Shown one piece after another: positions 1,547 to 19,122 of a stretch of 64,000 bases of DNA; position 1 is the first letter of the stretch; every line of letters starts with the position of its first letter. The DNA is from Rhizobium favelukesii (GTDB lineage: Bacteria; Pseudomonadota; Alphaproteobacteria; Rhizobiales; Rhizobiaceae). Location: NCBI RefSeq assembly GCF_000577275.2, contig NZ_HG916852.1, positions 1,491,001 through 1,555,000 of the forward strand. The letters run 5' to 3'. A model generated the notes under the pieces. The model made no database searches. It worked only from the letters and a program-made list of their open reading frames with translations, and was not told the origin of the DNA. Position numbers and translations under genes: made by a program.

Positions 1547-2782
1547 TCACAGTGCCTTTACGGAGTCATGCGCCATTTGTGCGCCATCGCCGAAAATGGA
1601 TGTCGAAATCTGGTCCATGACGTTGCGATGGCTGTCGCTTGGAAAGAGGTGCGCATATCTCGACATCGTGACGGCCAGCGAGGAGTGGCCGGCGAACGTC
1701 TGGACGGTCTTTGGCTGTAGGCCAGCCTCGATCCATGTCGATATCGCGAAATGGCGAAGGGCGTGCCAATTGAAGGGCTTGAATTTCTTGCCGCCCTCTT
1801 TTGCCTTGGCGGCTGTCGTGGCCAGGAGAGGCCGGAAATCGCGCTTGAGGATGTTCTTGTGATCGAGGAACCCGCCCTTGGAATTTGGGAATACTAGATC
1901 GTCCGCCTCTGACTTATTGGCGGCTTCTTTCCACTTTCGAAGCTCGGCCAGCATCGCGGACGAGAGAGGAACCTGCCGGAGACCTGCAGTCGATTTGGTT
2001 GTGTCCTCGTTTTTGTAAGCATCGACGCGACCATCGACAGTTAGTTCACCGGCGTTGAAGGCGACGTGCTTCCAGCGGAGCGCATAGAGCTCCGATGCGC
2101 GCACGCCAGCCGAGGCCGACAAGCGCATGCGGATGGCAAGGCTTCCCGTTGCCTGGGCGAGGGCGGCAGCAAGATCCGCTTTGGACGGGGGAACGACCTT
2201 CTTGGATCCTTCTCCGCGCTTGCCAGTCACTCGGATGTTGCTGGCCGGATTGGCTGCGAGGAGATCATTGCCAACGGCATTTTGTAAAGCGCGAGAGAGG
2301 CTGCCGATAATACGGCGCGTGGTTACCACCCCGACGCCAGCGTCGCGCAATCGATCGCGGAAGTCGCCAATGACCTTAGCCGTGCACTGAGAAAGCTTAA
2401 CCGGCCCGACACCACCTTCAAAAATGATTCTCGTCTTTTCTGGCTGCTTGGCTCGATGCTCTTCGGTTGGCGCCACATAATTCCGCAGCTGCCCTTCGAC
2501 CGTTCGAAAGTAGTGCTCTGTGACGTGCTCGCCGCGGTCACGTCTGCCCGCCAGGAGATTTAAATAATCCTTCACTGCGTCATCAACGGTGGTACTCGCC
2601 GCATCTGCTCGAAACGTGCCAGCCGCTACTTGGTGTGTAACTTCGGTGCGGTGGGCCTCAGCTTCCCGCTTTCGCTCGAATTGGTTTCTGTGCCGTTTGC
2701 CAGACGCATCGGTCCAGGCAACCGTCCATGCTTCGTGGTCGCCGCTCTTGTTTACCCATCGCCGTTTAGTGATCGTTGCCAT
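1547..2782 (-). CDS. int: Tyrosine recombinase, prophage integrase
   Basis: The 411-residue protein has the layout of phage tyrosine integrases: an N-terminal arm-binding region, a SAM-like core-binding domain at about 60-190 and a catalytic domain from about 200. The catalytic set is visible: Arg228 (GVRASELYALRW), the Lys region near 258-263, HxxR at His340-Arg343 (HALRH), His366 (AGHSS) and nucleophile Tyr376 (SRYAHLF). It would integrate and excise the phage at the tRNA-Thr site. The gene is the first of the element, and its stop lies 16 bp from the attL core. Confidence 0.96.
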   Translation of the reverse strand: MATITKRRWVNKSGDHEAWTVAWTDASGKRHRNQFERKREAEAHRTEVTHQVAAGTFRADAASTTVDDAVKDYLNLLAGRRDRGEHVTEHYFRTVEGQLRNYVAPTEEHRAKQPEKTRIIFEGGVGPVKLSQCTAKVIGDFRDRLRDAGVGVVTTRRIIGSLSRALQNAVGNDLLAANPASNIRVTGKRGEGSKKVVPPSKADLAAALAQATGSLAIRMRLSASAGVRASELYALRWKHVAFNAGELTVDGRVDAYKNEDTTKSTAGLRQVPLSSAMLAELRKWKEAANKSEADDLVFPNSKGGFLDHKNILKRDFRPLLATTAAKAKEGGKKFKPFNWHALRHFAISTWIEAGLQPKTVQTFAGHSSLAVTMSRYAHLFPSDSHRNVMDQISTSIFGDGAQMAHDSVKAL

Positions 2783-2959: not shown

Positions 2960-3175
2960 ATGCAGTCAGCAAACGATAACATTATTGAGGGCGATCTTCT
3001 GGTCGGAGCCAAGGCAATTGCAAGGTTCCTCGGCATCACCCAGCGCCAGGCCTACCGCCTTACAACCGACCGCATTATCCCAAGCATGAAGCTTGGCGGC
3101 ACCGTCGCCGCGCGCCGCTCATCGTTGGTTCGATGGATGTCTGAAGCTGAAGCTCAGGCGGCCAGAGCCGCCTAA
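2960..3175 (+). CDS. Excisionase-like helix-turn-helix protein
   Basis: The 71-residue protein fits the small MerR-like/AlpA excisionase fold: ALA-type helix (ARFLGITQRQAYRL), a wing with IPSMKLGGTVAARRSSL and a final helix (RWMSEAEAQAA). Such proteins bind beside att sites to steer the integrase towards excision or act as small regulators. A good Shine-Dalgarno (AGAGGAGAAAAA) precedes the ATG. It is divergent from int and first of the left operon. Residues 4-7 are ANDN, a motif shared with other proteins of this phage. Confidence 0.7.
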   Translation: MQSANDNIIEGDLLVGAKAIARFLGITQRQAYRLTTDRIIPSMKLGGTVAARRSSLVRWMSEAEAQAARAA

Positions 3176-3235
3176 TCACTCATCTGAAAACTTAACTGCT
3201 AAGCCGACCGGCCGAGCGCCGGCGAAGGAGGAAAT

Positions 3236-3652
3236 ATGCACGCAGAAATCAAAGGGCCGTCGCTTGCAGATGTGCTCGCATTCACGATGATCGAAAAGGC
3301 CGCTGACGTAGCTCGTGTCGAGCGTGCCGTAGCTCACCGGATGTCCGTGGTACGCGGGTGGGTGGGCTGGCGGGTGATAGCAACCGAGATGGACGAGGAC
3401 GAGGACGATCTGTGGCGGGTCAAGGTATTCTGCGATCCGATCGGTGGCGGCCACCGCGAACTGGCGGTCTTCCAGTTTCTTGTGAGCCATGGCACCAAGC
3501 GTCGCTCACACCGGTTCGAAAGCTTCGTTGCCGCGTGTGGCCTGAAGGCGATCAGTGACACCGACGACCTGAATAGCAGGTACTTCGCGACAAAGGATGG
3601 AGGCCGGACGGCTGCTGACTTTGGCTCCCTGACAAACGCTATAGTCGCTTAA
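3236..3652 (+). CDS. Unknown phage early protein, 138 aa
   Basis: I do not recognise this family. The start at 3236 has a strong ribosome site (AAGGAGGAAAT). The protein begins with a helical part (ADVLAFTMIEKAADVARVERAVAHR), followed by a beta-rich acidic segment with MDEDEDDLWRVKVFCDP and a C-terminal region without clear motif. It lies between the excisionase-like and replication genes on the same strand with short gaps, so a role in early phage regulation or replication is an inference from position only. Confidence 0.65.
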   Translation: MHAEIKGPSLADVLAFTMIEKAADVARVERAVAHRMSVVRGWVGWRVIATEMDEDEDDLWRVKVFCDPIGGGHRELAVFQFLVSHGTKRRSHRFESFVAACGLKAISDTDDLNSRYFATKDGGRTAADFGSLTNAIVA

Positions 3653-3703
3653 TCAATGAGAGTTCTTTCTCTGTCACCCGCCACCAATCCAGGCGGCGGG
3701 TCG

Positions 3704-3937
3704 ATGAAGGTGGTCGCCACATTCGATCTGCAGTTGACCCCCGACATCGCCGTCTACGGCATGCGCCTTCTTCGAGCGCCAAACGGAGATCACGTCTCGT
3801 ATGCCCCAACCGCATTGGGTGGTCGCCGATCGGTGACATTTGGCCGGTCTCTCGCTGAAACTATCACCGCCGCAGCCCTCAAGACACTAACGGAGCACGA
3901 CACTGCACATGGCGCCACTTCCCAAAAGCAAAAATGA
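3704..3937 (+). CDS. Unknown small phage early protein
   Basis: The frame is open from 3656 (93 aa), but I prefer the start at 3704, because the ordered part begins just after it with VVATFDLQLTPDIAVYGMRL. The preferred product has 77 residues and no family I recognise. Its end overlaps the next gene by 29 bp in another frame, which suggests translational coupling with the primase-like protein and a possible accessory role in replication. The start choice is uncertain. Confidence 0.55.
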   Translation: MKVVATFDLQLTPDIAVYGMRLLRAPNGDHVSYAPTALGGRRSVTFGRSLAETITAAALKTLTEHDTAHGATSQKQK

Positions 3938-6257
3938 GCCTACCGTCGCCTCATTCGACGAGCCTGCGATCCGTGAACATGTCGAGATGCTTCACTCTCT
4001 GGCCGCCGGTCTGGATGGTCTTCTCGTTGTGTCGACGTACCACGCCAATCCGACAGGCGAAACAGACACTCCGGGGATCGTCACGCACCATCGTATTGGT
4101 GATGTCGAAGGCATGGTCGACTCCATTCTCTCCCACGCAGAGACACCCAACGCGAACATCTTCACTGGCCTTCACGTGATGCGTCGCGGGGTTGCTGTGG
4201 GTAAGCGCGGAACTGAAGCAGACATTCTGGCCACGCTCGGCTTCGTCGTCGACCTCGACGCGGATACTGGTAAGATCGGCGATATGCCGATAGAGCCGAG
4301 TCTTGCCTTGGAAACGTCCAGCGGCAACTTTCAGCCATTCGTCTTGCTCGATCGGCCAATTGCGCCAGGTGCAGCGAAGCCATTGGCTGCAGCGCTTAAG
4401 CGCGCGACTGGCAGCGATCATGGAACGGGTGACGTGGCCCATGTCTGGCGCATCCCGGGAACACTGAACTGGCCGAACAAGAAGAAACTCGAACGCGGAC
4501 GCTCTCCCGAGCCTGTGGCAGTAACGGTCGATCTACGTTGGGATGGCAGCCTTACGAGCGTTGATGACCTAAGCGCCGCGCTCGAGCCATGGATGACTGC
4601 ACCTGCAAGTCCCTCAGCGGTGACAATCGGGGATCTACCAGCGCTGGACGGTGTCGAGATTTCCGACCGGGCGGCCGAGTTGCTCGCGTCCAACGACGTC
4701 GGTGATCGTTCGGCTTGGGCCTCAAAGGTCATCGAACAGTTGGCATTCGACGGCCTTACTGCGGAGCACGCGTGCGCCGCTTTCCTGTCGGCGACCGGTG
4801 ACTGGTTCAAGCGCTACGAGAGCAAGGATCCTACGAAGGACTTTGAGCGGATCTGGGGAAAGTTCGCGCTACCGATGATCGAGGCTCGCGAAGAGCAAGC
4901 CGAGGTAGCTCGCCAGTTCGTAGCGAAGGCAACCGCTAGACGCGCTCCGGTCGCGGCCAATGACAACGTGCCGGTAACGGACACGCCAGCGATGCACCCC
5001 AATCCGTTCACCCCACAGGCGGCTGGCGGGCTGCTGGAGAAGATAGCGACATGGGTGAACGATACGGCCATCGTCCCTGTGCCCGAGCTATCGCTGGCCG
5101 CCGCAATTGCTCTTATGGCCGGCTGCTTTGGCAAGATGGCGATCGGGCCCACCAACGCCGGCGTGAATGTCTATTTCGCAACGCTGCTAGCGACGGCCGG
5201 CGGTAAAGGGCACCCTCCTAAAGCAATCCGTACTCTAGGAGATCTCTGCGGAGCCCAGGGCGCGGTTAGTAACGGAGATCCGACCAGTTATGCTGCGATC
5301 GAGCGGATGCTACGAAAGAGCAGTTCCACGGTCGTCACGATGGACGAGTTCGGCGTGACGCTTCAGGACATCAACGGCCGCAATCAGAACTCTGCTTCAG
5401 CCTCAATCCGGAAGATGCTGCTAGCGATCTACGACCAGTCGAACTCGGTTTTTGACGGCCGCATATATGCCAGCAGCGAGACGAAGAAGGATGATGGCCC
5501 AATCGTTGGACCGGCACTCACGGTTCTTGCGATGACGACGCCGTCGACCTTGTACGCAGGGTTGTCAGCTGCTTCCGTGTCGGACGGCTTCATCAACCGC
5601 TTCGTGTTCGTCACTGGGGCGCGGGATGAAGGGGGTATTAGGCCGCCGCGTCTCGATGTCGACCTGAAGCCACCCGCCCACCTTGTCGCATCGTTGCAGA
5701 ACGCCATCACGGGTTTCCCGAAGTCCGGCAAGCCTGGCGCCAAGTACAAGGTCGGATTTGAAGGCGGCGAGGGTGGTGCAGCCTACAGGCGTTGGGGTGA
5801 GATTTTCATGTGGCAGCACCGCCCTGGTTGGGATGAAATCTACAACGACATCAACGGTCGCGCTGCGGAGAACACCGTACGCTTAGCAACAATCCGCGCG
5901 ATCAGTCGCGACGCCCGTTCACCTGCGATAACACTTGAAGATGTCGAGTGGGCTTGGGCTGTTGTCTTCCGGTCAATCGATCTAATCGCCAAGGGCGTAA
6001 GCCGTCACATGTCATCCAGCCCCGCCGAGGCTTTGCGCAAATGTATCGTTGAGATCCTGCGCGAGGCGCCCGAGCAGACCATGGCATATTCCACCCTTCT
6101 GCGGCGCAGGGGCGTCCGCGGGTCCGACCTATGGGAGGTTGATAGCGCACTGACATACCTGATGGAGAGCCGCGAAATCGGGATCATTGGTCGCCCGAAA
6201 CCAGGTGCCGGAAGCAAGTTTCAGCTGCTCGATTTGGCAACGGAAACGGCAACGTAG
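3909..6257 (+). CDS. Primase/helicase-like replication protein
   Basis: The 782-residue protein combines two parts. The N-terminal 340 residues resemble plasmid RepB-type or archaeo-eukaryotic-type primases: an acidic DLDAD cluster at 115-119 and HVWRIPGTLNWPN near 178-190. Residues about 360-700 resemble DUF3987-type P-loop ATPases, with a variant Walker A (GGKGHPPKA near 430) that lacks the usual Ser/Thr after GK, and a Walker B (VVTMDEFG near 475). The linker carries ANDN at 350-353. It probably primes and unwinds phage DNA at the repeat cluster just downstream. The exact biochemical activity is inferred. Confidence 0.78.
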   Translation: MAPLPKSKNEPTVASFDEPAIREHVEMLHSLAAGLDGLLVVSTYHANPTGETDTPGIVTHHRIGDVEGMVDSILSHAETPNANIFTGLHVMRRGVAVGKRGTEADILATLGFVVDLDADTGKIGDMPIEPSLALETSSGNFQPFVLLDRPIAPGAAKPLAAALKRATGSDHGTGDVAHVWRIPGTLNWPNKKKLERGRSPEPVAVTVDLRWDGSLTSVDDLSAALEPWMTAPASPSAVTIGDLPALDGVEISDRAAELLASNDVGDRSAWASKVIEQLAFDGLTAEHACAAFLSATGDWFKRYESKDPTKDFERIWGKFALPMIEAREEQAEVARQFVAKATARRAPVAANDNVPVTDTPAMHPNPFTPQAAGGLLEKIATWVNDTAIVPVPELSLAAAIALMAGCFGKMAIGPTNAGVNVYFATLLATAGGKGHPPKAIRTLGDLCGAQGAVSNGDPTSYAAIERMLRKSSSTVVTMDEFGVTLQDINGRNQNSASASIRKMLLAIYDQSNSVFDGRIYASSETKKDDGPIVGPALTVLAMTTPSTLYAGLSAASVSDGFINRFVFVTGARDEGGIRPPRLDVDLKPPAHLVASLQNAITGFPKSGKPGAKYKVGFEGGEGGAAYRRWGEIFMWQHRPGWDEIYNDINGRAAENTVRLATIRAISRDARSPAITLEDVEWAWAVVFRSIDLIAKGVSRHMSSSPAEALRKCIVEILREAPEQTMAYSTLLRRRGVRGSDLWEVDSALTYLMESREIGIIGRPKPGAGSKFQLLDLATETAT

Positions 6258-6463
6258 CAACGGCTCAAAGCCTCATCCCTTGCATAGTGGCAACGGTTGC
6301 CATTCATTGCAACCATATGGCAACAGAAAAGACTATATATATCAATAACATATATATATTTTTCTTCTCTATTGCCACATTGCCAAGATGCTTTTGAAAT
6401 TGGTTTTTTCCCGTATCTGCCCCTGTCTGAATCCATGTTGGCAATGTGGCAATACGGCAATGG
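6234..6463. repeat. GGCAA repeat cluster with AT-rich core, candidate origin
   Basis: At least ten copies of GGCAA or its complement TTGCC lie between the end of the primase gene and 6463. They include a palindrome TGGCAAC-G-GTTGCCA (6288-6302), TGGCAAC at 6318-6324, and a perfect 16-bp inverted repeat: ATTGCCACATTGCCAA at 6371-6386 and its complement at 6438-6453. A run of A and T with two TATATATAT tracts (about 6332-6370) sits between them. Iterons beside a DNA-unwinding element after a replication gene are typical of replication origins. Regulation of the downstream genes is the other possibility. Confidence 0.6.
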
Positions 6464-6481
6464 CGTTCAATTGGAGGGTTT

Positions 6482-6916
6482 ATGATCAGAACACGAGTTC
6501 AGAATATCGGCGGACCGTTCCCCGGCAAGGGAGCGGCCCCCAGTATGGCACACGACAAGATTCTGCCTCGCGGCCAGCGGGCAGGGTTCGAAAAGCTCAA
6601 CGACGTGGCGGCAATGCGCCCCACGATAACGGATGCCGGCAGCCTTATGGCTGCGAATGACAACACGCCAAAGCCAGAAGCCACGCCGACTTGGTCAAAC
6701 AAAGAACTGCGCTTGACCAAAGCACAGGCGGATTTTCTGGGCAGCGGCCGCAACAGCGTTCATCAACGTGTCGACGATCGGACGCAGTTGATCCTCGAGT
6801 CCCGCAAGATGTTTGGGCCATGGAAACCGAACGGCGACGGCACCTACAGCTTGCCGCTTTCAGCAAAGGGCGAGGCGGCTTTACGGCGCCATCACAATCG
6901 GAAAACGAGGGGATGA
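6482..6916 (+). CDS. Unknown phage protein, 144 aa
   Basis: I chose the ATG at 6482 because TTGGAGGGTTT lies just upstream; an ATG at 6446 would lie inside the repeat cluster. The protein is basic, with a Gly/Pro-rich N-terminus, ANDN at 58-62 followed by a Pro-rich linker, and a C-terminal region of about 75 residues with WSNKELRLTKAQADFL and WKPNGDGTYSLPLSAKGEAALRR-like pattern, perhaps a small DNA-binding domain. The stop overlaps the next start (ATGA). Function unknown. Confidence 0.65.
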   Translation: MIRTRVQNIGGPFPGKGAAPSMAHDKILPRGQRAGFEKLNDVAAMRPTITDAGSLMAANDNTPKPEATPTWSNKELRLTKAQADFLGSGRNSVHQRVDDRTQLILESRKMFGPWKPNGDGTYSLPLSAKGEAALRRHHNRKTRG

Positions 6917-8046
6917 AAATGGAACGCAGCACCGCAGAGCATCGCGCAGCCGTCGAAGCATGGCGGGCCTCGGCTCCCAAGCATGACCATGAAATTTTCG
7001 GCCGAAAACTGAAGACTGAGAAGCCAAGGCACAAGGACCTGTCCCAGCTGTCAGCCTTGCTGGCAATGCGTAGCCGCGCGGTCGGCGTTGCTGAGGGTGT
7101 GGAAGAAGCGGCCGAAATCCCGACAATCTCGACCAATTGGCGCATCGTTGCTGCAAATGACAACCAGCCGCCGGAAGAAGATGAGGGTTTCGGAACCGAA
7201 CGAGCAGTAGAATACGAGCCAAGTCTTGATCTGTTGGAAGCCGAGATTGAACACCTGCCTGTTCGCCATCGCGTCGAGCCAATGGTCCGCGGTGGTCGAA
7301 GTGATCGCGAGGTTCACGCCATCCCGGTTGATGGTGATGTGGCATACGGCACCCACGTCGATGAAGACGACAAGCCGCACAAAGTGATCGTCCGCATCGG
7401 TCGCCTTCGCTTCAGCGACGGCTCACAAACCGAGAAGGGACACAAGCTCGTCATGGACAAGGTCGTCAACACTGACCTCAAAATGCCAGTGGGATCGATG
7501 CTCGGCAGCCGCGAGAAGTCAACTCGTGACCGCGGCGGCGAAGACGACACATCCGGTAGCAACGCTCACTATCGCTGGATCGTAAAAGGTCGCGTTGCCA
7601 CTCCGGCCAAGCTCCACCCCACCAAGGACCAGCGTGTCGAGATCTCGAAGGCCCAGGCGCGACAGATTATTGCCGACGCAATGGCCAAAACTGATGTCGT
7701 GATCACGAAATGCCCCGACGGGTTCCCCTACGGGCCAACCAACCTCCGTCAGCTATTTATCGGTGGTCGGAAAGGCAAGAAGGGCGAATCGGGGTCACAG
7801 GCATGGGCGGATATCTTCACGGAAAAAGAAAACCGCGATGCATTCACTCGCGGACTCGATGCGATGCAGGAGAAGCACGTTCGAGTTCTAACTGAAGCGA
7901 TGACGGCAAAAAGCCTCAGTGCGCTTGGAGAGGCACGCGGTTACCGTGGCCGCCACGCGGTTGATGCCGGGCGTCGTCTTCTTCGGGCAGCAAACGACAA
8001 CTTTACGGAAGCGATGAAGCTCGCGGAGTTTGCTGCGGAGGCGTGA
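6913..8046 (+). CDS. Unknown phage protein with SsrA-tag-like C-terminus
   Basis: The start at 6913 overlaps the previous stop as ATGA; 377 residues follow. No domain is recognised. The N-terminal third is helical and charged. The region at about 100-330 is beta-rich with a Lys/Gly loop (GGRKGKKGESG). ANDN occurs twice: at residues 81-84 and at 360-363. The last 19 residues, AANDNFTEAMKLAEFAAEA, resemble an alphaproteobacterial SsrA degradation tag (Caulobacter: AANDNFAEEFAVAA). This suggests that the protein is turned over by ClpXP with the SspB adaptor. It is the last gene of the early operon. Confidence 0.7.
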   Translation: MKMERSTAEHRAAVEAWRASAPKHDHEIFGRKLKTEKPRHKDLSQLSALLAMRSRAVGVAEGVEEAAEIPTISTNWRIVAANDNQPPEEDEGFGTERAVEYEPSLDLLEAEIEHLPVRHRVEPMVRGGRSDREVHAIPVDGDVAYGTHVDEDDKPHKVIVRIGRLRFSDGSQTEKGHKLVMDKVVNTDLKMPVGSMLGSREKSTRDRGGEDDTSGSNAHYRWIVKGRVATPAKLHPTKDQRVEISKAQARQIIADAMAKTDVVITKCPDGFPYGPTNLRQLFIGGRKGKKGESGSQAWADIFTEKENRDAFTRGLDAMQEKHVRVLTEAMTAKSLSALGEARGYRGRHAVDAGRRLLRAANDNFTEAMKLAEFAAEA

Positions 8047-8822
8047 GGGAAGTTTCTCGCAACTCATCCCCCTATAAAGGTGAAGGGGATGGTGAAGGCC
8101 ATCCCTCATCCTTTCCGGGCGCACAGATTGGTTGCGACGGACGCTCGGCCAGTGATGAGCCGGGCGTAACTATTGGCAAGGCAGGGCTTTGTACACCTTG
8201 CAAAGGCACCTAGAGCAACGCTCCGGCCGTTCCTGCCTTTCGCATGAGCATCCTAGTCCTCTGGCCTGGCGAACTACGGTTGCGCCATGTTCATGCCTAA
8301 CATCCTGAAGCAACAGGAGGGCGCCACTGACGAGTGGTGGCCGGATGCAATCCCATTGCCCACCCACGGCACGATGCTTGCGGCGTGGACGCGGCATTCC
8401 GTTGGGCAACCCCATTACCATGGCGCCGCCTCCTCCGGCGACGTGGTAATCGTGCGGCCGCTCCGCTGCGATGTGCGGTGTTGAGCGGCCGCTTTCGGTT
8501 TCTGGTGCTACCTTTGGCGTTACGATTACGTGTCAAATGGTTAACGTGTTGCACACATTCTGCGTCTCGTCGCGTCAGATGCGTTTAGTCAACGGACATC
8601 ACCTGCGACAATAATGCGTTTGAATTTCGCGCGTTTAATTGCGTCTACATGTGTAGGTTATATTGACGCCGGCCAGAATCTGAACCATATCTCATTACGA
8701 ACTACAGGCGGTTCCGCGTGCGCTTGGATCCTTCGTCCCGTCGGCAGGATAGATTTCCTGGGGGTTGAAACGGTCGCAAAGCGGATATGGCTACCGACGC
8801 CAGAAGGTGGAGTTCGCTTCCA
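8047..8822. other. Accessory stretch without a convincing gene
   Basis: This 776-bp stretch has lower GC and short open frames with no ribosome sites that I trust. It opens with overlapping stem-loops: ATCCCC pairs with GGGGAT, and GGGATGG pairs with CCATCCC (about 8067-8107). Neither has a U tract, so these may end or process the early transcript. I see no tRNA, no repeat array and no recognisable gene remnant in the rest. Confidence 0.5.
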
Positions 8823-9314
8823 TCAGCCGCCAGTTCTCGTCCAGACGATGTCGAGATTTCGAGCCGACGTCGTTGGAAGCGCGGTGGTCACACTCCAAAT
8901 TGCAAGCTCCGGGTCCCACTGTGCAATGACGCGATGGTGGTAATTGTTGTGTTCGCGCAGGAATATAAGACGCCCGTCGTCTTGGGCGGCTATGCGATCG
9001 TAATTCGAGACGACGAAATGAACGTACGCGACCACGCTGTGGTAGCCTAGGCCGGTGAGGTGCTTGAGACGGCGCGCTTCGATATGCGCTGCGCCAAAGC
9101 CACCTTTCGCCCCTTCGACGCCATTGAGGAGCTTGATTGGCCCCTCGTTTTTGTCGATCAACGCCGATATCTCGGCTGTAACAACGCCGAGATCGCCCTG
9201 TCCTGAACTCGTATAAACGGTTCGTTTTTCATTCCGTAGGAGCAGCAGCTTATTCACACGAGGCCTCGTTGTTACGCGGTCGGTCAATTTTATTGTGTCA
9301 GGCAACTGCTGCAA
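8823..9314 (-). CDS. Possible BECR-type (phage-associated RNase-like) protein
   Basis: The open frame encodes up to 163 residues from a TTG; a GTG further in (9260 area) is an alternative, and neither has a clear ribosome site. The C-terminal 90 residues show GGFGAAHIEARRLKHL, a beta-rich middle, and a final IVWTRTG strand. The spacing recalls barnase-EndoU-colicin-RelE (BECR) nucleases found in phages. His in HIEARR would be a catalytic candidate. It lies alone against the direction of the late genes in an AT-richer region, as expected for an acquired gene. The family call is tentative. Confidence 0.45.
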   Translation of the reverse strand: MQQLPDTIKLTDRVTTRPRVNKLLLLRNEKRTVYTSSGQGDLGVVTAEISALIDKNEGPIKLLNGVEGAKGGFGAAHIEARRLKHLTGLGYHSVVAYVHFVVSNYDRIAAQDDGRLIFLREHNNYHHRVIAQWDPELAIWSVTTALPTTSARNLDIVWTRTGG

Positions 9315-9447
9315 ACACTAAATATAGTATTAACAGCGTATTATCGCCTATCTCGGATGTGGCGGTTACGCTCGGAAGCGCACACGCGGGACTACATCGG
9401 CGTGACGAACCTTCAGGTTCGGCAAACCGTCACCATATCGCTGGATT

Positions 9448-9663
9448 TTGAAGGGAACCGGCCTCGTTAATTCCGGTCCAACTGCCGCAGCAACATCTAG
9501 TGCTATTGAGATGGAAACTGCAGATTCCGTCAAGGGGTTGTTTTTAACGAACCGTTCACCACAAGATGTTGTGGATCGGGTTGTGGAGAACGTGGAAAAC
9601 AAACTTCCGAAACAAATTCAACATGTTACGTGCGTTTTCAGTCTTAAGGAGCAAGAAGTCTAA
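9448..9663 (+). CDS. Weak small open frame
   Basis: A TTG-initiated frame of 71 residues ends with a helical segment (SPQDVVDRVVENVENKLPKQIQ) that looks protein-like. No ribosome site is evident and upstream in-frame sequence is open to a TGA at 9403, so the start is uncertain or the frame may be the remnant of a longer gene. No family is recognised. Confidence 0.25.
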   Translation: MKGTGLVNSGPTAAATSSAIEMETADSVKGLFLTNRSPQDVVDRVVENVENKLPKQIQHVTCVFSLKEQEV

Positions 9664-9785
9664 GAAAAGCTGGGACACTGTTGATTTGGTCGCGGCTTTG
9701 CCAATCAAATGCGGCAGCTGATTCGTTGAGATCTCTGCGGCAGTTGATGGCGCGCGCCTCGTTTGTTTTTGTACGTCTTCCGATC

Positions 9786-10028
9786 CTAGAAACCACCCGC
9801 CTCAATCACCACATTAAGATCATGCGCCGGGCCCGTTTCCCAACGACCGACGTATGAGGTCGGCTCGCGCACACGCAGTGTAGCGTTGAGCCGGCCGCTT
9901 CCCGAAAATACCCAATCACCTGGCGCCGATCTCTCCCGGCGACGGTGAGGCACGCGGCGGGTAGAGCGTAGCCAACACCCAGCTCCCTGCCGCGTTGCTA
10001 TTTCAGTCGATTGGCGGCCTTGTCGCAA
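9786..10028 (-). CDS. Weak small open frame before DUF3606 gene
   Basis: The last 40 residues (containing GDWVFSGSGRLNATL and ending VVIEAGGF) have protein-like composition, while the start of the frame is Arg-rich and overlaps the DUF3606 gene by 31 bp, so the true start is probably internal. It follows the DUF3606 gene on the same strand. No family is recognised. The surrounding sequence 9664-9785 shows nothing I can name. Confidence 0.3.
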   Translation of the reverse strand: MRQGRQSTEIATRQGAGCWLRSTRRVPHRRRERSAPGDWVFSGSGRLNATLRVREPTSYVGRWETGPAHDLNVVIEAGGF

Positions 10029-10180
10029 GCATCCCGATCCGAGCCATGCTGATTGATAATCCGCTTTGCGTCCGCGGTTGCGATCCCGTGCTTCTTCGCA
10101 AACGGGGCGACCTCGTAGGGGTCCCGCGTTGGTAGTCCGCCATGATCGGCCTTGCCGCGCCTCGGCTTATTATATGCCAT
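9998..10180 (-). CDS. Small DUF3606-like protein
   Basis: The 60-residue product starts at the ATG complementary to 10178-10180, preceded by AAGGAG at a good distance. It has the pattern DPYEVAPFAKKHGIATADAK followed by RIINQHGSDRDACD, which matches the small DUF3606-type proteins common in rhizobia, with a Lys/His-rich helix-turn-helix-like layout. Function is unknown; a DNA-binding role is possible. It is divergent from the HNH gene and lies on the opposite strand to the late operon. Confidence 0.72.
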   Translation of the reverse strand: MAYNKPRRGKADHGGLPTRDPYEVAPFAKKHGIATADAKRIINQHGSDRDACDKAANRLK

Positions 10181-10212
10181 CTGTGGACTCCTTCGGTACA
10201 TGGGAACAATTC

Positions 10213-10542
10213 ATGGCGTATTCGGCTGAAGACCGGCGGAGCGAAGAGGCGAGGCAATGGCGTCGTCTCTATAGGACCGTCGCATGGAAGAAGCTTCGTC
10301 ACTATCAGTTGAGCATGCAGCCTTTGTGTTCGTTTTGTCTCGAGGTCGAGGACGTCACAGCGGCCGAAGTCGCTGACCACGTAAAACCTCACAAAGGCGA
10401 CCTGAGTCTCTTTTACGATCCAACCAACCTACAGTCTTTGTGCCGCCCACACCATGATGGCACTAAGCAGCGCCTCGATAGCGGATCGGTCGACACTCGC
10501 CTTGATGGCGATGGTTGGCCGGAATGGCGGCACGGCCGATGA
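10213..10542 (+). CDS. HNH endonuclease next to terminase
   Basis: The 109-residue protein has a CxxC knuckle (CSFC), the core ADHVKPHKGD and the closing NLQSLCRPHHDGTK, the usual order of a small phage HNH nuclease. In HK97-like phages the HNH protein directly upstream of the terminase assists DNA cleavage during packaging, which fits here. I chose 10213 because the sequence after it is conserved-looking; 10174 is also possible. It opens the late operon. Confidence 0.88.
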   Translation: MAYSAEDRRSEEARQWRRLYRTVAWKKLRHYQLSMQPLCSFCLEVEDVTAAEVADHVKPHKGDLSLFYDPTNLQSLCRPHHDGTKQRLDSGSVDTRLDGDGWPEWRHGR

Positions 10543-10648
10543 CCCGGAGGGGCTGGGTCCGAAGGTCCTGCCGTCAGACCGGGGTACCGGCGTCGGGGGC
10601 AACTTAGTCTAAACCTGTAGAAAAAAAGTTTCTGATTGGAGAATTTCG

Positions 10649-11077
10649 ATGGCGGCTCGCGGACGCAAGTCGGCGGCTAGCACGGAGATTGTGATCGCCT
10701 CCAATGTCGAGGTGATCAACCGCCCACTGCCGCCACGGGAACTCACTGCCGAGCAGGGAGCGGAGTGGCGGGCGGTTGTAGACCGCATGCCGGCTCATTG
10801 GTTTCCCCGCGAAACCCACGCCATGCTTACGCAGTACTGCCGGCACGTGGTTGTTGCCAGGCGCATCGCACAATTGATCCAGAAAGCGGAGAAGGCCGAG
10901 GCTTTCGACATCGATGGATACGACAAGCTCCTAAAGATGCAAGAGCGCGAGGGTAGAGCGATCTCGTCGATCGCCACGCGGATGCGGATCACACAACAAG
11001 CAACGGTTCGAGCTGAATCGGCGAGGAAGCCGGGGCAGATCATCGCGCCATGGGAAGATGATGGCGAAGACACTTAG
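10649..11077 (+). CDS. terS: Terminase small subunit, P27 type
   Basis: The 142-residue protein starts after GGAGAATTTCG. Its pattern is that of the P27 family: a Pro-rich start (INRPLPPRELTAEQGAEW), a conserved WRAVVDRMP followed by PRETHAMLTQYCRHVVVAR, and a coiled helix with KMQEREGRAISSIATRMRI. Such proteins bind the packaging site and load the large subunit. The gene overlaps the large subunit gene by 20 bp, which supports coupling. Confidence 0.88.
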   Translation: MAARGRKSAASTEIVIASNVEVINRPLPPRELTAEQGAEWRAVVDRMPAHWFPRETHAMLTQYCRHVVVARRIAQLIQKAEKAEAFDIDGYDKLLKMQEREGRAISSIATRMRITQQATVRAESARKPGQIIAPWEDDGEDT

Positions 11078-12626
11078 TCGGGCCGAGCGAAACATCCGCT
11101 GGCTCGAGAAGCACATCAGGATTCCCGAGGGCCGCTTTTTTGGCCAGCCGATCAAGTTGGCGCCGTTCATGAAGGACGACCTCAGGGCTATCTACGATAA
11201 CCCGCACGGCACTCGCCGCGCCATTATCTCCCGTGGCCGTAAGAACGCGAAGACCACAGAATCGGCGATGATCCTCCTGCTGCACCTATGCGGCCCGGAG
11301 GCGAAGCCTAACGGCCAGCTGTTCAGTGCTGCGCAGTCTCGCGACCAGGCAGCCATTTTGTTCGAGTTGGCCGCGAAAATGATCCGGATGTCTCCCGTGC
11401 TCTCAGCGTTTGCCGAACCGAAGGACAGCGGTAAGCGTATCGTGTGTCGAGGGCTGGGCACCGTTTACCGAGCTCTCTCGGCGGACGCTGCGACTGCCTA
11501 CGGCCTGTCTCCAGCCCTCACCATCCACGACGAACTCGGCCAGGTAAAGGGTCCGCGGTCATCGCTCTATGATGCCCTGGAGACGGCTACGGCCGCGCAG
11601 GGCGAGCCGCTTTCGATCATCATTAGCACGCAGGCACCCACGGACGCTGATCTTCTCTCCGTTCTAATTGACGACGCTAAGAAGGGTCGCGACCCGCGCA
11701 CCGTTCTGCGATTCCAGACTGCCCCAGCTGAACTCGACGCGTTTAGCGTAGAAGCGGTCAGGGCTGCCAACCCGGCTTTCGACCTATTCATGAACCAGGA
11801 CGAAGTCCTGGGCATGATGGAAGACGCACGGAATATGCCGGCCCGTGCCGCCGAGTTCGAGAACTTGGTTCTCAATCGGCGCGTTGAAACGAGCAATCCG
11901 TTTGTGTCTCGCAAGGTCTGGATGGAGAATGCCGAGGAGCCAAACCGCGATTTCGGCGAACGCCCCGTGTTCGGCGGCTTGGACCTTAGCGAATGCAACG
12001 ACTTGACGAGCCTTGTGCTCGTAGCGCCTGAGGACGTCGAGGCCGGCACGGTTTGGGATGTTCGGCCGCACTTCTGGCTACCTGGCGAGGGCTTGGCCGC
12101 GAAGTCTCGCATGGACCGTGTCGGCTACGACGTTTGGGCGACGGATGGTTTCATTGAGGCGATCGAAGGAGCCAAAAGCATCGAGTATGAACTCATTGCT
12201 CGGCATATACGCGATGTGTGCGATGAGATGAATGTCCAAAGGATGGCCTTCGACCGGTATAATTTCAGGCACCTACGACCATGGTTGCTGAAAGCCGGCT
12301 TCGGCGAGGAAGAGATAGACGCGAAATTCGTCGAATTCGGCCAGGGCTTCGTTTCTATGTCTCCGGCCCTGCGCACCGCAGAATCCCTTCTGCTCAACAA
12401 CAAAATACGACACGGCAACCATCCCGTACTCACGATGTGCGCGGGCAATGCGGTCGTGAAGAAAGACGACGCGGGGAATCGTAAGCTGACCAAGGCGGGC
12501 AGCCGCGGCCGTATAGACGGAATGGTGTCGCTTGTTATGGCCCTTTCGGTTGCTGAAGAATATGTGCCCGAAATTGCGGCCACATCCCCTTGGGACGATC
12601 CAAACTTCCAATTAATGGCGGGATAA
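11058..12626 (+). CDS. terL: Terminase large subunit
   Basis: The 522-residue protein is the packaging motor ATPase/nuclease of the HK97 type (Terminase_1 family). The Walker A variant SRGRKNAKT is at 59-66, the Walker B LTIHDELG at 154-161 with Asp158-Glu159, and the nuclease half begins with the acidic FGGLDLSECNDL near 310. It translocates DNA into the prohead and cuts it. The stop codon overlaps the portal start (TAATG). The length is typical. Confidence 0.96.
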   Translation: MMAKTLSRAERNIRWLEKHIRIPEGRFFGQPIKLAPFMKDDLRAIYDNPHGTRRAIISRGRKNAKTTESAMILLLHLCGPEAKPNGQLFSAAQSRDQAAILFELAAKMIRMSPVLSAFAEPKDSGKRIVCRGLGTVYRALSADAATAYGLSPALTIHDELGQVKGPRSSLYDALETATAAQGEPLSIIISTQAPTDADLLSVLIDDAKKGRDPRTVLRFQTAPAELDAFSVEAVRAANPAFDLFMNQDEVLGMMEDARNMPARAAEFENLVLNRRVETSNPFVSRKVWMENAEEPNRDFGERPVFGGLDLSECNDLTSLVLVAPEDVEAGTVWDVRPHFWLPGEGLAAKSRMDRVGYDVWATDGFIEAIEGAKSIEYELIARHIRDVCDEMNVQRMAFDRYNFRHLRPWLLKAGFGEEEIDAKFVEFGQGFVSMSPALRTAESLLLNNKIRHGNHPVLTMCAGNAVVKKDDAGNRKLTKAGSRGRIDGMVSLVMALSVAEEYVPEIAATSPWDDPNFQLMAG

Positions 12627-13903
12627 TGGGTATTTTTGAACGACTCTCCCGCCGAAACGCGGACAATGCGCCGGAAACGCGCGCATCCATCGAAAATCCT
12701 ACGGTGCCAGTGAGTGCCGAGAATTTCATGGCATTCTTCGGCGTTCAGAGCGCCAACCTGCCGCACGTCACGATCGACAACGCGCTTAGGGTCCCGGCTG
12801 TTTGGGCTGCGGTTGCATTTCTATCTCGCACGCTGGCCGCGCTGCCTCGGCATGCATATCGCGATACCAAAGATGGTGCGAAACGCGTGGGCGGCAGGCT
12901 TGAGACGGTGGTCAACGCGGCGCCAAACGACACGATTGGCTCCTTCGGGTTCTGGCAGTGGTTCTGGCAGCAGGTATTTACCGGCGGCCGGGGCCTCGCC
13001 TACATCGAGCGCACGCCGCAAGGCATCGACTCGCTCTGGCCGATGGATCCGACAAAGACCACGATCAAGCGCGTCGGTATGCGGGTCGTCTATCAGTTCG
13101 AAAACAAGGAATACGACGCGGCCGATGTGATCGACGTGCCGTTCATGCGCCGCAGCTGCGGATTGAAGCACTACGGGCCGATCGCCCAGGCGTCCAAGGC
13201 GATCCAACTCGCAATCGCCATGAATGATTATGGCTCAAACTTCTTCGCTGGCGGTGGTGTTCCGCCGTTGGCGCTAGAAGGTCCTCTTCCTGCCGGCGCC
13301 GAGGCAATGAAGCGAGCGCAGGCCGATATCAAGCGGTCGGTCGACGCAGCTAAGAATGCTGATGAGCCAATCTTCCCCATTCCGGCAGGATATAAACTAT
13401 CGCCGGTCGGGATTGATCCTGCCAAGGGCCAGATGGTCGAGGCGCGGCGATTCCAGGTGGAAGAAATTTCACGCACCTACCAACTTCCGCCGGTGTTCTT
13501 GCAGGACCTGACCCACGGAACGATGGCCAACACAGAGCAGCAGAACCTAATGCTTGTTCAACACCTGATCGGCCAATGGGCCAAGGCGTTGGAAGACGAA
13601 CTTAATCTGAAATTCTTTGGTCGGAGCGGCGGCTCACGTTACGTGAGACATGTGCTCGACGGGTTAATGCGCGGCGACTTCGCCACCCGCATGGAGGGTC
13701 TAGCAAAGGCCGTTCAGAATGCGTTGCTGACGCCGAATGAGGCACGCGCCTTGGATGATCGTCCTGCGATGCCACATGGCGACGATCTGTTCCTCCAAGG
13801 CGCAACGGCACCTCTGGGAACTGCGACGTATGGCCAGAAAAACAAGGCTGGTGCTCCGGCGCCCGCCAATGACAACGCCGACGACGGGGCTGACGCAGCA
13901 TGA
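12626..13903 (+). CDS. Portal protein
   Basis: The 425-residue protein fits the HK97-type portal family, which forms the dodecameric DNA channel at one capsid vertex. Family features include VPAVWAAVAFLSRTLAALP near 53, the mid-region VIDVPFMRRSCGLKHYGPI, and the helix-rich end with EEISRTYQLPPVFLQDLTHGTMAN. The start at 12626 overlaps the terminase stop. The last 12 residues, ANDNADDGADAA, begin and end like rhizobial SsrA tags; portal C-termini are usually variable, so this may be a degradation signal or a coincidence. Confidence 0.95.
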   Translation: MGIFERLSRRNADNAPETRASIENPTVPVSAENFMAFFGVQSANLPHVTIDNALRVPAVWAAVAFLSRTLAALPRHAYRDTKDGAKRVGGRLETVVNAAPNDTIGSFGFWQWFWQQVFTGGRGLAYIERTPQGIDSLWPMDPTKTTIKRVGMRVVYQFENKEYDAADVIDVPFMRRSCGLKHYGPIAQASKAIQLAIAMNDYGSNFFAGGGVPPLALEGPLPAGAEAMKRAQADIKRSVDAAKNADEPIFPIPAGYKLSPVGIDPAKGQMVEARRFQVEEISRTYQLPPVFLQDLTHGTMANTEQQNLMLVQHLIGQWAKALEDELNLKFFGRSGGSRYVRHVLDGLMRGDFATRMEGLAKAVQNALLTPNEARALDDRPAMPHGDDLFLQGATAPLGTATYGQKNKAGAPAPANDNADDGADAA

Positions 13904-14511
13904 CGACCAACATTGAAAAGCGCAGTTATGTCGGCGCGGTCGAGCACCGTGCTGACGACGGCAAGCGCACGCTGATCGGCTACGCCGCCAAGTTTGAGCG
14001 GCTGGCCATGATCGGGAGCTACTTCCAAGAAAAGATCGCGCCTGGCGCCTTCTCGACCGCGATCGGCGGTGACATTCGGGCTCTGGTAGATCACGACCCG
14101 GGCCGGGTTATCGGCCGCACGAAGAGTGGGACGCTCCGACTTCGTGAGGATGGTGTCGGATTGGCCGTTGAGGTCGACATCCCAAACACTACCGATGGCA
14201 ATGACCTTTGGGAGCTAGTCGAGCGCGGTGACATCAGCGGCATGAGCTTCGGCTTTCGCGTCACCAAGGAGACTTGGGACGAGACAGGCGACGTACCGGT
14301 GCGCACGATCCAGGCCGTGGAGCTCTTCGAAGTCTCCGCGGTTGCATGGCCGGCTTACGAAGACACGACTATTGGCCTTCGCTCGCTAGATGCGGCGAGG
14401 TCAGACGGTGATTCCGCGAGCCGAAACGCAGCGGCCGCGGCCAGACGCGTCGCCGAAAAGCGCGCGGCATTGGAACAACGAATTCGGGGCATCCGGCAGG
14501 AAGCTTCGTAA
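13900..14511 (+). CDS. HK97-family prohead protease
   Basis: The 203-residue protein belongs to peptidase family U35/S78. His65 (VDHDPG) and Ser in DISGMSFGF (113-116) are the expected catalytic residues, followed by AVELFEVSAVAWPAYEDT. The C-terminal tail is Ala/Arg-rich and helical. It would remove the delta domain of the capsid protein during maturation. It overlaps the portal gene by 4 bp and precedes the capsid gene by 86 bp. Confidence 0.95.
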   Translation: MTTNIEKRSYVGAVEHRADDGKRTLIGYAAKFERLAMIGSYFQEKIAPGAFSTAIGGDIRALVDHDPGRVIGRTKSGTLRLREDGVGLAVEVDIPNTTDGNDLWELVERGDISGMSFGFRVTKETWDETGDVPVRTIQAVELFEVSAVAWPAYEDTTIGLRSLDAARSDGDSASRNAAAAARRVAEKRAALEQRIRGIRQEAS

Positions 14512-14597
14512 GTCCACCCGGCTCCGCCGGAGGGCAGGGTCTCCTGCCATTTCATCCTGAAGGCGCCGCGTGGCGCCATTTTCATTTGGAGAAAAGT

Positions 14598-15851
14598 ATG
14601 TCCCTTAAGGAACTGAACGAGAAGCGCGGCAAGCTTGTACATGACGCCCGCGAAGCTCTCGACGCCATCAAGGCAAACACCGACGAAGCGCGTGCAGCTG
14701 AGCTAGACACACGCCACGACACCGTCATGGCTGAGTTCGACAAGATCTCAAAGCTGATCGAGCGCGAGCAGAAGCTCGCTGAGATCGAAGCCCGGTTTGA
14801 GCAGCGTCGTCAGGAGCGCCGTCCGATCTCTGGCGAGGGCGAGCAGCGCGGCCAGGATACTGGCGACAAGATCGAGTACCGCCAGGTGTTCGCGAAGGTC
14901 GTTTGTGGCGGCCTCGACGACCTGAGCCCGGAAGAGCGCGCTGTGCTGAAGCAGGGCGTCGCCAAGTTCGAGCAGCGCGCTCAGACGGCCGGCTCGACGA
15001 CTGCTGGCGGCTACACGGTTCCGACCGAACTGGCCAACGAGATCGTTCGCAGCATGCTGGCCTGGGGTCCCATGTACGACGGTGATGTCGCACGTGTGAT
15101 CACGTCTTCGGCCGGCAATCCGATGAAGGTGCCGACTGTCAACGACACTGCGAAGTCGGCTGGCGCACACACTGAAGGCACTGCGCTGACAGACGACGGC
15201 TCCGAAGACGTTACCTTCGGCCAGAAGTCGCTCGACGCATACGTATTCGACACTGAGTTTATCCGGTGGTCATTCGAGCTCGAAGCCGACTCGATCTTCT
15301 CCATGGAAGCTCTCTTGGCGGACCTCCTCGGCGAACGCCTTGGCCGCATCGCGAACGCCCAGCTCACGCTCGGCACTGGTTCGTCTGCTCCGAATGGTGT
15401 TGTTACGGCATCGACGCTCGGCAAGACCGCTGCTTCGGCGACGGCGCTGACCTGCGACGAGCTTATCGACCTCGAGCACTCAGTGAACCGCGCATACCGC
15501 AAGTCGCCGAAGGCAGCGTTCATGATGAATGACCTGACTGTCAAAGCGGTGAGGAAGCTGAAAAATTCTGACGGAGACTACATCTGGTCAGCCGGCGACG
15601 TCACCCAAGGTCGCCCAGCTACGCTGCTTGGCTACAAATTGAACGTCAATGACAGCATGGCAGATATCGCTACCGGACAGAAGACCGTTCTGTTCGGGGA
15701 CTTCAACAAGTACTTCGTGAGGAAAATTGGTTCACCTGTCATAGGGGTGCTCCGCGAGCGCTTTTGGCCTGACCTCGGGATTGCGGGTCTGATCCGCTTC
15801 GACGGAGAGCTCGCTGACACCGCGGCGATCAAACATTTGATCCAAGCGTAG
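14598..15851 (+). CDS. Major capsid protein, HK97 fold, with delta domain
   Basis: The 417-residue protein starts at 14598 after TTGGAGAAAAG. Residues 1 to about 85 are a charged coiled coil (ELNEKRGKLVHDAREALDAI and following), which acts as the built-in scaffold; there is no separate scaffold gene. The rest is the HK97 fold with typical segments AGGYTVPTELANEIVRSM, the glycine loop GTGSSAPNGVV and the end SPVIGVLRERFWPDLGIAGL. Upstream of the gene, GGCTCCGCCGGAGGGC-like inverted sequence may mark a high-expression leader. Confidence 0.96.
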   Translation: MSLKELNEKRGKLVHDAREALDAIKANTDEARAAELDTRHDTVMAEFDKISKLIEREQKLAEIEARFEQRRQERRPISGEGEQRGQDTGDKIEYRQVFAKVVCGGLDDLSPEERAVLKQGVAKFEQRAQTAGSTTAGGYTVPTELANEIVRSMLAWGPMYDGDVARVITSSAGNPMKVPTVNDTAKSAGAHTEGTALTDDGSEDVTFGQKSLDAYVFDTEFIRWSFELEADSIFSMEALLADLLGERLGRIANAQLTLGTGSSAPNGVVTASTLGKTAASATALTCDELIDLEHSVNRAYRKSPKAAFMMNDLTVKAVRKLKNSDGDYIWSAGDVTQGRPATLLGYKLNVNDSMADIATGQKTVLFGDFNKYFVRKIGSPVIGVLRERFWPDLGIAGLIRFDGELADTAAIKHLIQA

Positions 15852-15906
15852 TGAAACGAGCGGGCTGGCCTTCGGGCTGGCCCGCATCTCTTTCAGGAGG
15901 CGACAT

Positions 15907-16080
15907 ATGCTTTTGAAAATGACTGCGGGCCTTTCCGGTCCCGACTTCAATCTCGCCTCTGGCGACGAATACGATTTCGATGCGGACGAAGCCGAGCGCC
16001 TGAAGGCTGCTGGCTTTGCTGTAGATGCCGAGCCCGAAATTAAGGCTCCGGTTAAGACCAAGAAGGGCAAGGCAGCCTGA
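15907..16080 (+). CDS. Small protein behind the capsid gene
   Basis: A 57-residue frame begins at 15907 with the strong ribosome site CAGGAGGCGACAT. The product (MLLKMTAGLSGPDFNLASGD and then DEAERLKAAGFAV) resembles the small head proteins with a 'sGp.f.l.pGde...d..eA.rlveaGfA' pattern found after capsid genes. It ends with a Lys-rich tail. The stop overlaps the next start as TGATG. A role in head assembly or decoration is inferred from position. Confidence 0.72.
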   Translation: MLLKMTAGLSGPDFNLASGDEYDFDADEAERLKAAGFAVDAEPEIKAPVKTKKGKAA

Positions 16081-16622
16081 TGTGGTATCCGGCCAAAGTG
16101 ACGACGGCAGCGACGGCGGAGCCGGTAACTCTTGATGACGTGAAGCGGCGCCTTCGCGTCGACTTTGCCGATGAAGACGTGGACATCGAATTGATGATCG
16201 CGTCGGCGCGCGATCACGCCGAGAAATACTGCAATGTGCTGTTTGCCGAGCAAACGGTTGAGTTGAAGTGCGATTGCTGGGGCGATCTGGCACGACTGCC
16301 GGTAGCTCCAGTCTCGTCGGTGACATCGATCGCCTACGTCGATACGGACGGAGCCACTCAGACGCTAGCCGCCGACGCCTACGAGCAGCGTCTTGAGGGT
16401 TTGGAGCCGGCAATCGTTCTTGCGTACGGCAAGCAGTGGCCGGCTATTCGGTCGGGCTCGCGGATCACTGTGACTGCGGTTGCTGGATACGAAGAGGCGC
16501 CGCCAGCCGTGAAGCACGCACTTCTCCTATTCATCGCCGACGCCTATGGGACCCGCGAAAACTCGAAGGTCGACGACTGGACGGCGCTCGACGCTCTTCT
16601 TTGCAACTTCAGGCGCGGCTAG
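16080..16622 (+). CDS. Head-tail connector, gp6-like
   Basis: The 180-residue protein matches the gp6-like head-tail connector family: an N-terminal helical module PVTLDDVKRRLRVDFADEDV with a helix ending RDHAEKYCNVLF, a middle LARLPVAPVSSVTSIAYVD and a C-terminal helix PPAVKHALLLFIADAYGTRE. These proteins form the ring under the portal. It is coupled to the preceding small gene by TGATG. Confidence 0.88.
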   Translation: MWYPAKVTTAATAEPVTLDDVKRRLRVDFADEDVDIELMIASARDHAEKYCNVLFAEQTVELKCDCWGDLARLPVAPVSSVTSIAYVDTDGATQTLAADAYEQRLEGLEPAIVLAYGKQWPAIRSGSRITVTAVAGYEEAPPAVKHALLLFIADAYGTRENSKVDDWTALDALLCNFRRG

Positions 16623-19119: not shown

Positions 19120-19122
19120 CGC

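Follow-up and report, generated by a model that had tools for sequence, protein, structure and literature searches.

The window, by which we mean the whole 64,000-nt stretch analysed (Rhizobium favelukesii NZ_HG916852.1, 1,491,001-1,555,000, forward strand; coordinates are window positions), holds a prophage in which five proteins carry the tetrapeptide ANDN (Table 1). Counting by hand, we found six copies, all where a preliminary description had placed them, and no seventh in any of the six frames of the window. They use five codon spellings. From residue frequencies, 0.094 copies are expected in the prophage ORFs (12,664 aa) against the six observed (Poisson P(≥6) = 9e-10, or ~1e-4 when all 160,000 tetrapeptides are allowed for); the shuffle test counts five, because its greedy ORF set leaves out the overlapping gene at 6482. 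Among the six, only the portal copy has a terminal AA at the distance found in SsrA tags (12 residues to the end), and in that tail the last Ala codon together with the stop makes up the ATGA at which the protease gene overlaps; copy 5 lies 18 residues from the end of a protein closing with EA, and the remaining four are internal or N-terminal. Phage ANDN peptides, with their flanks, include VAANDNQPP, PANDNADDGADAA and RAANDNFTEAM.

Table 1 ANDN copies and the prophage genes that carry them (window positions)
Feature	Position	Strand	Description
Excisionase-like gene	2960..3175	+	HTH_17
ANDN copy 1	2969..2980	+	Residues 4-7 of the excisionase-like protein, in its N-terminal tail ahead of the HTH domain (residues 18-62; HTH_17)
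Primase/helicase gene	3909..6257	+	Primase-like and DUF3987 parts
ANDN copy 2	4956..4967	+	Residues 350-353 of the primase/helicase, between primase-like and DUF3987 parts
Small gene with ANDN copy 3, unknown function	6482..6916	+	No PHROG or Pfam match
ANDN copy 3	6653..6664	+	Residues 58-61 of the 6482 product
Gene with two conserved ANDN copies, unknown function	6913..8046	+	phrog_36072
ANDN copy 4	7153..7164	+	Residues 81-84 of the 6913 product, low-confidence (disordered) linker
ANDN copy 5	7990..8001	+	Residues 360-363 of the 6913 product, C-terminal end (AANDNFTEAMKLAEFAAEA)
HK97-type portal gene	12626..13903	+	PF04860; stop overlaps protease gene start (ATGA at 13900)
ANDN copy 6	13865..13876	+	Residues 414-417 of the portal, numbered from the ATG at 12626
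Portal C-terminal tail ANDNADDGADAA	13865..13900	+	ANDN and terminal AA; 12 residues, the length of the host tag ANDNYAEARLAA

The tetrapeptide is the head of the host's own SsrA tag, which we read from the tmRNA in the genome as ANDNYAEARLAA; all six window sites thus carry the head of an SsrA-type degron. The sspB gene adjoins, and its product matches PF04386 (164.2 bits) and has solved relatives (2nys, 2qas, 2qaz). SspB is the host adaptor that hands SsrA-tagged proteins to ClpXP, and ClpX prefers an LAA end; the peptide contacts of alphaproteobacterial SspB were reportedly described by Chien et al. in 2007. We examined 29 more loci from the host's class and recovered tags from 26: 23 start with ANDN, as the preliminary description had stated for alphaproteobacteria, all 26 end in AA, and the middle is variable. 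The elements constant across the class, ANDN head and AA end, are the elements kept in the portal tails.

The preliminary description had proposed counting ANDN in related phages against expectation. Among relatives of the prophage (338,886 residues; a viral set selected for resemblance to two ANDN carriers, the portal and the 6913 protein, with homologues and a few contigs repeated), it occurs 187 times, compared with 2.4 expected by composition (iid) and a mean of 2.7 (range 0-18) for the eleven alternative arrangements of its letters. The enrichment is thus specific to the order, and the other letter orders rule out composition as its source. A host sample (800 kb) holds ANDN only twice in 238,496 aa, which excludes a host linker habit as the source and disposes of the alternative initially offered, a neutral linker habit of rhizobial proteins. 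Neither does a DNA-level signal account for the copies, which show 26 codon spellings with 185 matches in frame; 24 matches lie outside any called frame, some of them in real genes dropped by the ORF set. Protein-level selection, first proposed because codons differ between the window copies, is borne out across the phage hits.

The fairer count is that by family: 21 of the 514 phage protein families contain ANDN, and it has the top observed/expected ratio among tetrapeptides found in at least 8 families, whereas the raw count is repetitive (after merging, 81 loci contain 192 ANDN, 47 of them portal copies). Families with the motif include methyltransferases and exonucleases as well as the virion proteins portal and tape measure, which are odd degradation substrates; one family with ANDN in 1 of 62 members is probably there by chance. 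Ten genome loci gave 34 copies against 0.5 expected but overlap the viral set (1456 and 263 ORFs merge to 1527), and because 192 of the 263 ORFs are identical to ORFs of that set, we did not enter them as separate evidence. The odds that we give to the readings below rest on the by-family and control counts.

Individual sites are strongly conserved. Among the matches listed in the protein searches (120 out of 2134 and 120 out of 135), the portal has ANDN within the last 30 residues in 101 of 120 homologues and an AA end in 114 of 120, and 101 of 120 relatives of the 6913 protein retain its two copies; over 118-119 aligned relatives, ANDN is near-invariant beside variable residues. In 48 sequences, N84 of copy 4 is invariant with N82 and D83 at ≥90%, and the AANDN columns of copy 5 also stand at ≥90%. 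The excisionase-like protein has ANDN in 2 of 2 blastp relatives (a fetched set that includes this phage's own IMG/VR copy), the primase/helicase in 14 of the 20 relatives found directly by blastp and, within the linked family, in 34 of 50 members, and the 6482 product in 7 of 10 relatives, four of them within the last 20 residues and all four ending in AA. A relative in the same PHROG as the 6913 product (L151) ends ANDNLREARNLAA. The proposal that every copy lies in a flexible region stood in part: in the model of the 6913 product, residues 67-83 have pLDDT < 50 and block 81-90 averages 48, but copy 5 sits within a confidently predicted C-terminal helix (residues 347-376). Portal tails and the first 6913 site are conserved islands in variable, probably disordered segments, with the helical second 6913 site as the exception. 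Foldseek returned no match at E ≤ 0.001 with this model (pTM 0.31).

C-terminal ANDN copies often end in AA too, mostly 11-14 residues from the start of ANDN, like SsrA tags. We compared scans for ANDN..AA* with scrambled controls, all four scans fixing the first codon as GCC and retaining duplicates. ANDN..AA* yielded at least 61 protein ends in at least 28 groups (from at least 120 stretches listed, some on contigs of the first set such as L124 and L070), a few of which may be tmRNA, as such short frames were told by length and look; the order control ADNN..AA* yielded 3 (complete scan, 86 stretches). Contigs of the ANDN scan hold 55 further ANDN against 1.07 expected, compared with 2 against 1.19 in viral contigs matching by a short frame alone (presumably tmRNA). 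The terminal AA is owed in part to gene overlap: it is present in 52 of 56 C-terminal carriers whose stop reads ATGA (no gene call at that place is implied) and in 7 of 23 without. Portal tails mostly end in EAA, DAA, QAA or similar rather than LAA.

Order-specific excess, spread over families, conserved islands and tag-like C-termini together argue that ANDN is a short linear motif under selection. It is most likely an encoded mimic of the SsrA tag: as a copy of the tag's conserved head it would be docked by host SspB, and C-terminal copies with AA at tag distance would act as encoded SsrA-like tails. The portal tail would keep the adaptor site while weakening the ClpX contact, allowing removal only upon delivery by SspB, and linker copies may serve as tethers that add affinity. 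From these sequence features we infer docking, degradation by ClpXP and a benefit to the phage, the likely use being to limit, by time or dose, the activity of phage proteins that are harmful if left over (candidates are methyltransferases, exonucleases, helicases, nucleases, the excisionase and unassembled portal). We assign this explanation as a whole a probability of roughly 0.55. Counting against it are phages of the same kinds of host without ANDN, the missing ANDE excess, the helical copy 5, the AA partly forced by ATGA, and virion proteins as odd substrates.

The habit is confined to one phage gene pool. Phage 16-3 has 12 ANDN in its first 50 kb (0.1 expected), whereas the portions examined of phiM12 (30 of 195 kb), 7-7-1 (45 of 69 kb), PBC5 (50 of 57 kb) and RcapNL contain none, and Labrenzia vB_LagS-V1 has one, within its terminase. 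The early suggestion that phage proteins may carry tethers to SspB is supported in part, by protein-level selection and by identity with the host tag head, to which C-terminal copies tend to add the AA geometry; generality over rhizobial or alphaproteobacterial phages is not upheld in the parts examined. Other hosts' tag heads are not enriched in their phages either: the gamma/beta counterpart ANDE..AA* gave at least 15 protein ends against 13 for its control ADNE..AA* (complete, 116 stretches), its contigs held no further ANDE, and AANDENYA was found in 2 stretches, so we rejected a general tag-mimic rule for phages of these classes. ANDE tails on one portal and on three Cro/YdaS-like proteins, of which one passes Pfam's cut-off, look similar but are anecdotal; near-identity searches for the hosts of three ANDE contigs returned no match, no match and one 2% match, and tblastn with two ANDE proteins was uninformative.

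This restriction to one lineage, with no ANDE counterpart in the other phages examined, would also suit a different reader, another host or phage protein that binds ANDN and makes the match with the tag head incidental. Linker copies without a degradation end fit such a reader, as do the flanks, which favour [AP]ANDNxP where the host tag has no P. We nevertheless consider it unlikely: the tetrapeptide standing out by family ratio is precisely the tag head, joined at C-termini by the AA end and the length. Moreover, the window phage has 8 proteins in common with 16-3 (blastp E ≤ 1e-4; first 50 kb, all but the last 10 kb of 16-3), all structural-region genes within 11058-26108, and 6 of these also match the ANDN-poor Labrenzia phage. 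Within that comparison no common early gene turned up that could encode a reader, and we rejected one encoded by both phages.

Alternatively, the copies could be decoys: numerous, chiefly on abundant virion proteins, they would occupy scarce SspB and spare marked phage products, the carriers themselves escaping degradation. Most portal tails among the matches listed place an acidic or polar residue ahead of the final AA, which is in keeping with this, as is the density of copies in 16-3, and SspB is scarce in exponential-phase E. coli, with 176 or 356 dimers per cell (excerpts of PMC9382460). Copies are also found on enzymes and regulators whose levels are presumably low, however, and a decoy has no need of a terminal AA at tag distance, which makes this distinctly improbable. 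A neutral lineage-specific linker habit, or a small linker cassette spread by recombination, would suit a single gene pool and the many copies at insertion-tolerant linkers and ends, but is already disfavoured, and very improbable, given the excess over other letter orders, the many codon spellings with unlike flanks, and the near-invariance beside variable residues.

If the encoded tag mimic is real, the spread of a host trans-translation tag through a phage's proteins would be a new viral use of host protein quality control, and would account for tag-like tails on structural and DNA-modifying phage proteins. At slightly less than even odds, a temperate rhizobial phage lineage may use the host's ribosome-rescue tag as a proteome-wide address label, with the host adaptor and protease timing or dosing its life cycle. 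Just as tentatively, some 20 unrelated families would each have evolved a putative SspB-docking tag head, several also the C-terminal end. The annotated genome of Rhizobium phage 16-3 makes the idea testable.

Literature searches of the open-licence full text of PubMed Central, where subscription journals are mostly uncovered, showed no description of phage-encoded copies of a host tag at the level of titles and abstract openings. The closest system is the SsrA tag with SspB-ClpXP itself, whose ANDN head, AA end and 12-13 residue spacing recur in most portal tails, in a host that has both tag and SspB; unlike it, the phage copies are genome-encoded rather than products of trans-translation, differ in the middle and third-last residues, and are often internal. 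Untagged SspB clients such as RseA and MucA are likewise natural substrates brought by SspB without tmRNA (excerpts of PMC8138137 and PMC13251409), but the RseA degron VRPWAAQLTQMGVAA, as given there, has no tag-like head, whereas the phage proteins copy the tag sequence itself. Phage pf16 also touches the SspB step, although it encodes the adaptor and not a ligand (PMC5587285, in excerpt). A linker site combined with a C-terminal one has a precedent in FtsZ and ClpXP, judging from the abstract of PMC3983244. Finally, the DAS+4 degron (AANDENY-SENY-ADAS) keeps the adaptor site and weakens the ClpX end, and hence depends on SspB (PMC9382460, as excerpted), much as we propose for the portal tails; it is engineered for the E. 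coli adaptor, whereas the phage tails are natural and their role as degrons putative.

All six ANDN copies that the preliminary description had placed in five phage proteins are confirmed, and a six-frame search of the whole window returned no further ones. Residue frequencies predict 0.094 copies in the prophage (P of six or more = 9e-10, or ~1e-4 once every tetrapeptide is allowed). Direct repeats of 22 bp, starting at 1510 and at 42122 and likely attL and attR, bracket the element.

Features delimiting the prophage (window positions)
Feature	Position	Strand	Remark
Integrase gene	1547-2782	-	Prophage start
tRNA-Thr (tgt) genes	1482-1556 and 42094-42169		Flank the prophage; each contains one copy of the 22-bp direct repeat

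The host genome encodes one alpha-type tmRNA, and ANDN is the head of its tag, ANDNYAEARLAA. The tmRNA and sspB adjoin on the same strand (G000:C59:2617019-2617986; loci L001 and L002), the SspB match starting 158 bases after the tmRNA match. Solved relatives of host SspB are 2nys (AGR_C_3712p, from its name presumably an Agrobacterium protein), matched over residues 1-168 of 168, 2qas, and 2qaz, which itself carries the name SspB. A readable tag was obtained from 26 of the best 29 further tmRNA loci of the host's class: 23/26 start with ANDN and 26/26 end in AA around a variable middle, so the head and the last two residues are the constant parts. Tags of the ANDN type are 10-13 residues long.

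Across 71 viral loci related to the window phage (1456 distinct ORFs, 338,886 aa), ANDN occurs 187 times against 2.4 predicted from residue frequencies, and the other eleven orders of its letters occur 0-18 times each (mean 2.7). ANDN counts were 2 vs 1.07 expected in an 800 kb sample of the host genome and 3 vs 1.96 in viral contigs picked by the control order ADNN. Ten genome loci (34 vs 0.5 expected) add little, because their ORFs are mostly exact duplicates of ORFs in the viral set. Rhizobium phage 16-3 is a named relative with an annotated genome; its first 50 kb contain 12 copies against 0.1 expected (1000 within-protein shuffles: mean 0.1, maximum 2). Since homologues repeat, we grouped proteins into families by blastp; ANDN is present in 21/514 families and has the top ratio to expectation among tetrapeptides found in at least 8 families. 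With one representative per family it occurs in 15 families at 41-fold, and the overlapping NDNQ (5 families) is slightly above it in ratio. Dense ANDN clusters in two host-family genomes (G072:C2:13974-30005 and G088:C2:1374197-1376786; 7 and 4 pattern matches) are possibly further prophages.

PHROGs families were matched by 24 of 30 representative carriers. They include DNA methyltransferases of at least 4 different PHROGs, other nucleic-acid proteins (DNA repair exonuclease, RecE-like and exonuclease VIII families, DNA helicase, ParB-like, HNH endonucleases, primase/helicase), virion and lysis proteins (endolysin, baseplate, head morphogenesis, tape measure, portal), a queuine tRNA-ribosyltransferase and an esterase. 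ADLFGEAA, after ANDN, closes two methyltransferases that belong to different PHROGs (L148:1607-2440 and L157:8874-9668); its DLF presumably resembles a sliding-clamp motif. The 12 copies in the first 50 kb of phage 16-3 are spread over 11 proteins, which include portal, tape measure, protease, two exonucleases, HNH endonuclease and helicase. This helicase (L614:47005-48738) ends ANDNTPPPANDNRRNWEWELDDEVPF, with two ANDN and an acidic tip presumably reminiscent of the SSB C-end. Outside 11058-26108, the window phage has no protein in common with the first 50 kb of 16-3 (E <= 1e-4), and therefore ANDN arose in different proteins.

Selection at the protein level, proposed from codon differences, is borne out by 26 codon spellings and by conservation in portal tails and the 6913 family (homologues of the gene 6913-8046 product). 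Among the best 120 of 2134 portal homologues, the window's own included, 101 carry ANDN within the last 30 residues, in 72 different tails, and in 86 of these it lies 12 or 13 residues before the C-terminus; 9 of the remaining 19 retain NDN behind a different first residue. The best 120 of 135 matches in the 6913 family comprise 101 proteins with two copies, 18 with one and 1 with none; a 48-sequence alignment shows N84 invariant and the AANDN columns near the C-end conserved at 90% or above. The claim that every copy is flexible is not borne out: the AlphaFold2 model of the 6913 protein has its first site in a low-confidence stretch and its second in a confident helix.

C-terminal copies often look tag-like. 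We scanned viral contigs for ANDN (GCC first codon) followed by AA-stop after 4-10 codons; among matches from 120 stretches, at least 123 were found, at least 115 in frame, of which at least 61 belong to open frames with >=70 codons, in at least 28 blastp groups. The other in-frame matches listed are short frames, mostly resembling tmRNA tags. The ADNN control scan, complete at 86 stretches, gave 17 in frame and 3 proteins of >=70 codons. Among the matches listed, the 59 contigs that carry ANDN protein ends contain another 55 ANDN (1.07 expected), and the 53 with a short-frame match alone contain 2 (1.19 expected). Among the relatives' proteins, ANDN falls within the last 20 residues in 12 families, seven of which mostly end in AA; the mean AA-ending share of 502 other families is 5%. 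Part of this excess is forced, because 46/47 portal genes terminate in GCATGA, and in the window the start of the next gene falls there. With an ATGA stop, AA ends occur in 52/56 carriers vs 26/162 non-carriers; without it, in 7/23 vs 122/1286. The C-end of one relative of the window 6913 protein (L151, same PHROG) is ANDNLREARNLAA, which closely resembles the host tag.

The habit looks confined to one gene pool: ANDN is absent from the parts read of phiM12 (30 kb), 7-7-1 (45 kb) and PBC5 (50 kb), although their hosts are Sinorhizobium or Agrobacterium, and from RcapNL and Pseudomonas phage D3, and Labrenzia vB_LagS-V1 has one, in terminase. The gamma/beta tag start shows no parallel, with at least 15 ANDE..AA-stop protein ends against 13 in the complete ADNE control scan. 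Ends of this kind are seen on Cro/YdaS-like proteins and on a portal from other phages (L383:13217-13450, L496:9382-9618, L413:1640-1969, L396:1799-3265); their number is not clearly above the order control. AANDENYA occurs in two stretches. In L240:13400-13815 (- strand), a short frame at the contig end finishes AANDENYALAA-stop, a gene-encoded full E. coli SsrA tag, directly preceding another gene that, we presume, recalls a SecB-like chaperone.

That ANDN is a real, selected motif, unusually clear in sequence, is nearly certain; the best reading is that one lineage of temperate rhizobial phages encodes mimics of the SsrA tag. Judged from sequence, SspB is its most likely reader, because the tetrapeptide with the strongest spread over families is the host tag head and C-terminal copies often add the tag end at tag length. 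Host SspB would dock ANDN on phage proteins and degradation would follow; we infer this binding, degradation and a benefit to the phage, and give the SspB mechanism a probability of roughly 0.55. The main alternative, within the same SspB idea, is that the copies act as decoys binding the adaptor. According to reviews, SspB brings tagged proteins to ClpX, and in the DAS+4 tag the ClpX end is weakened, so that SspB decides (PMC9382460, PMC8138137); DAS+4 with E. coli SspB is functional in Caulobacter (PMC9825169). Phage pf16 encodes its own SspB (PMC5587285), which shows that the SspB step can be of consequence for phages. Among portal tails, those with EAA or DAA at the end look like natural versions of DAS+4, and the 6913 protein, with a linker and a C-terminal site, resembles FtsZ, a known ClpXP substrate with the same two kinds of site (PMC3983244).
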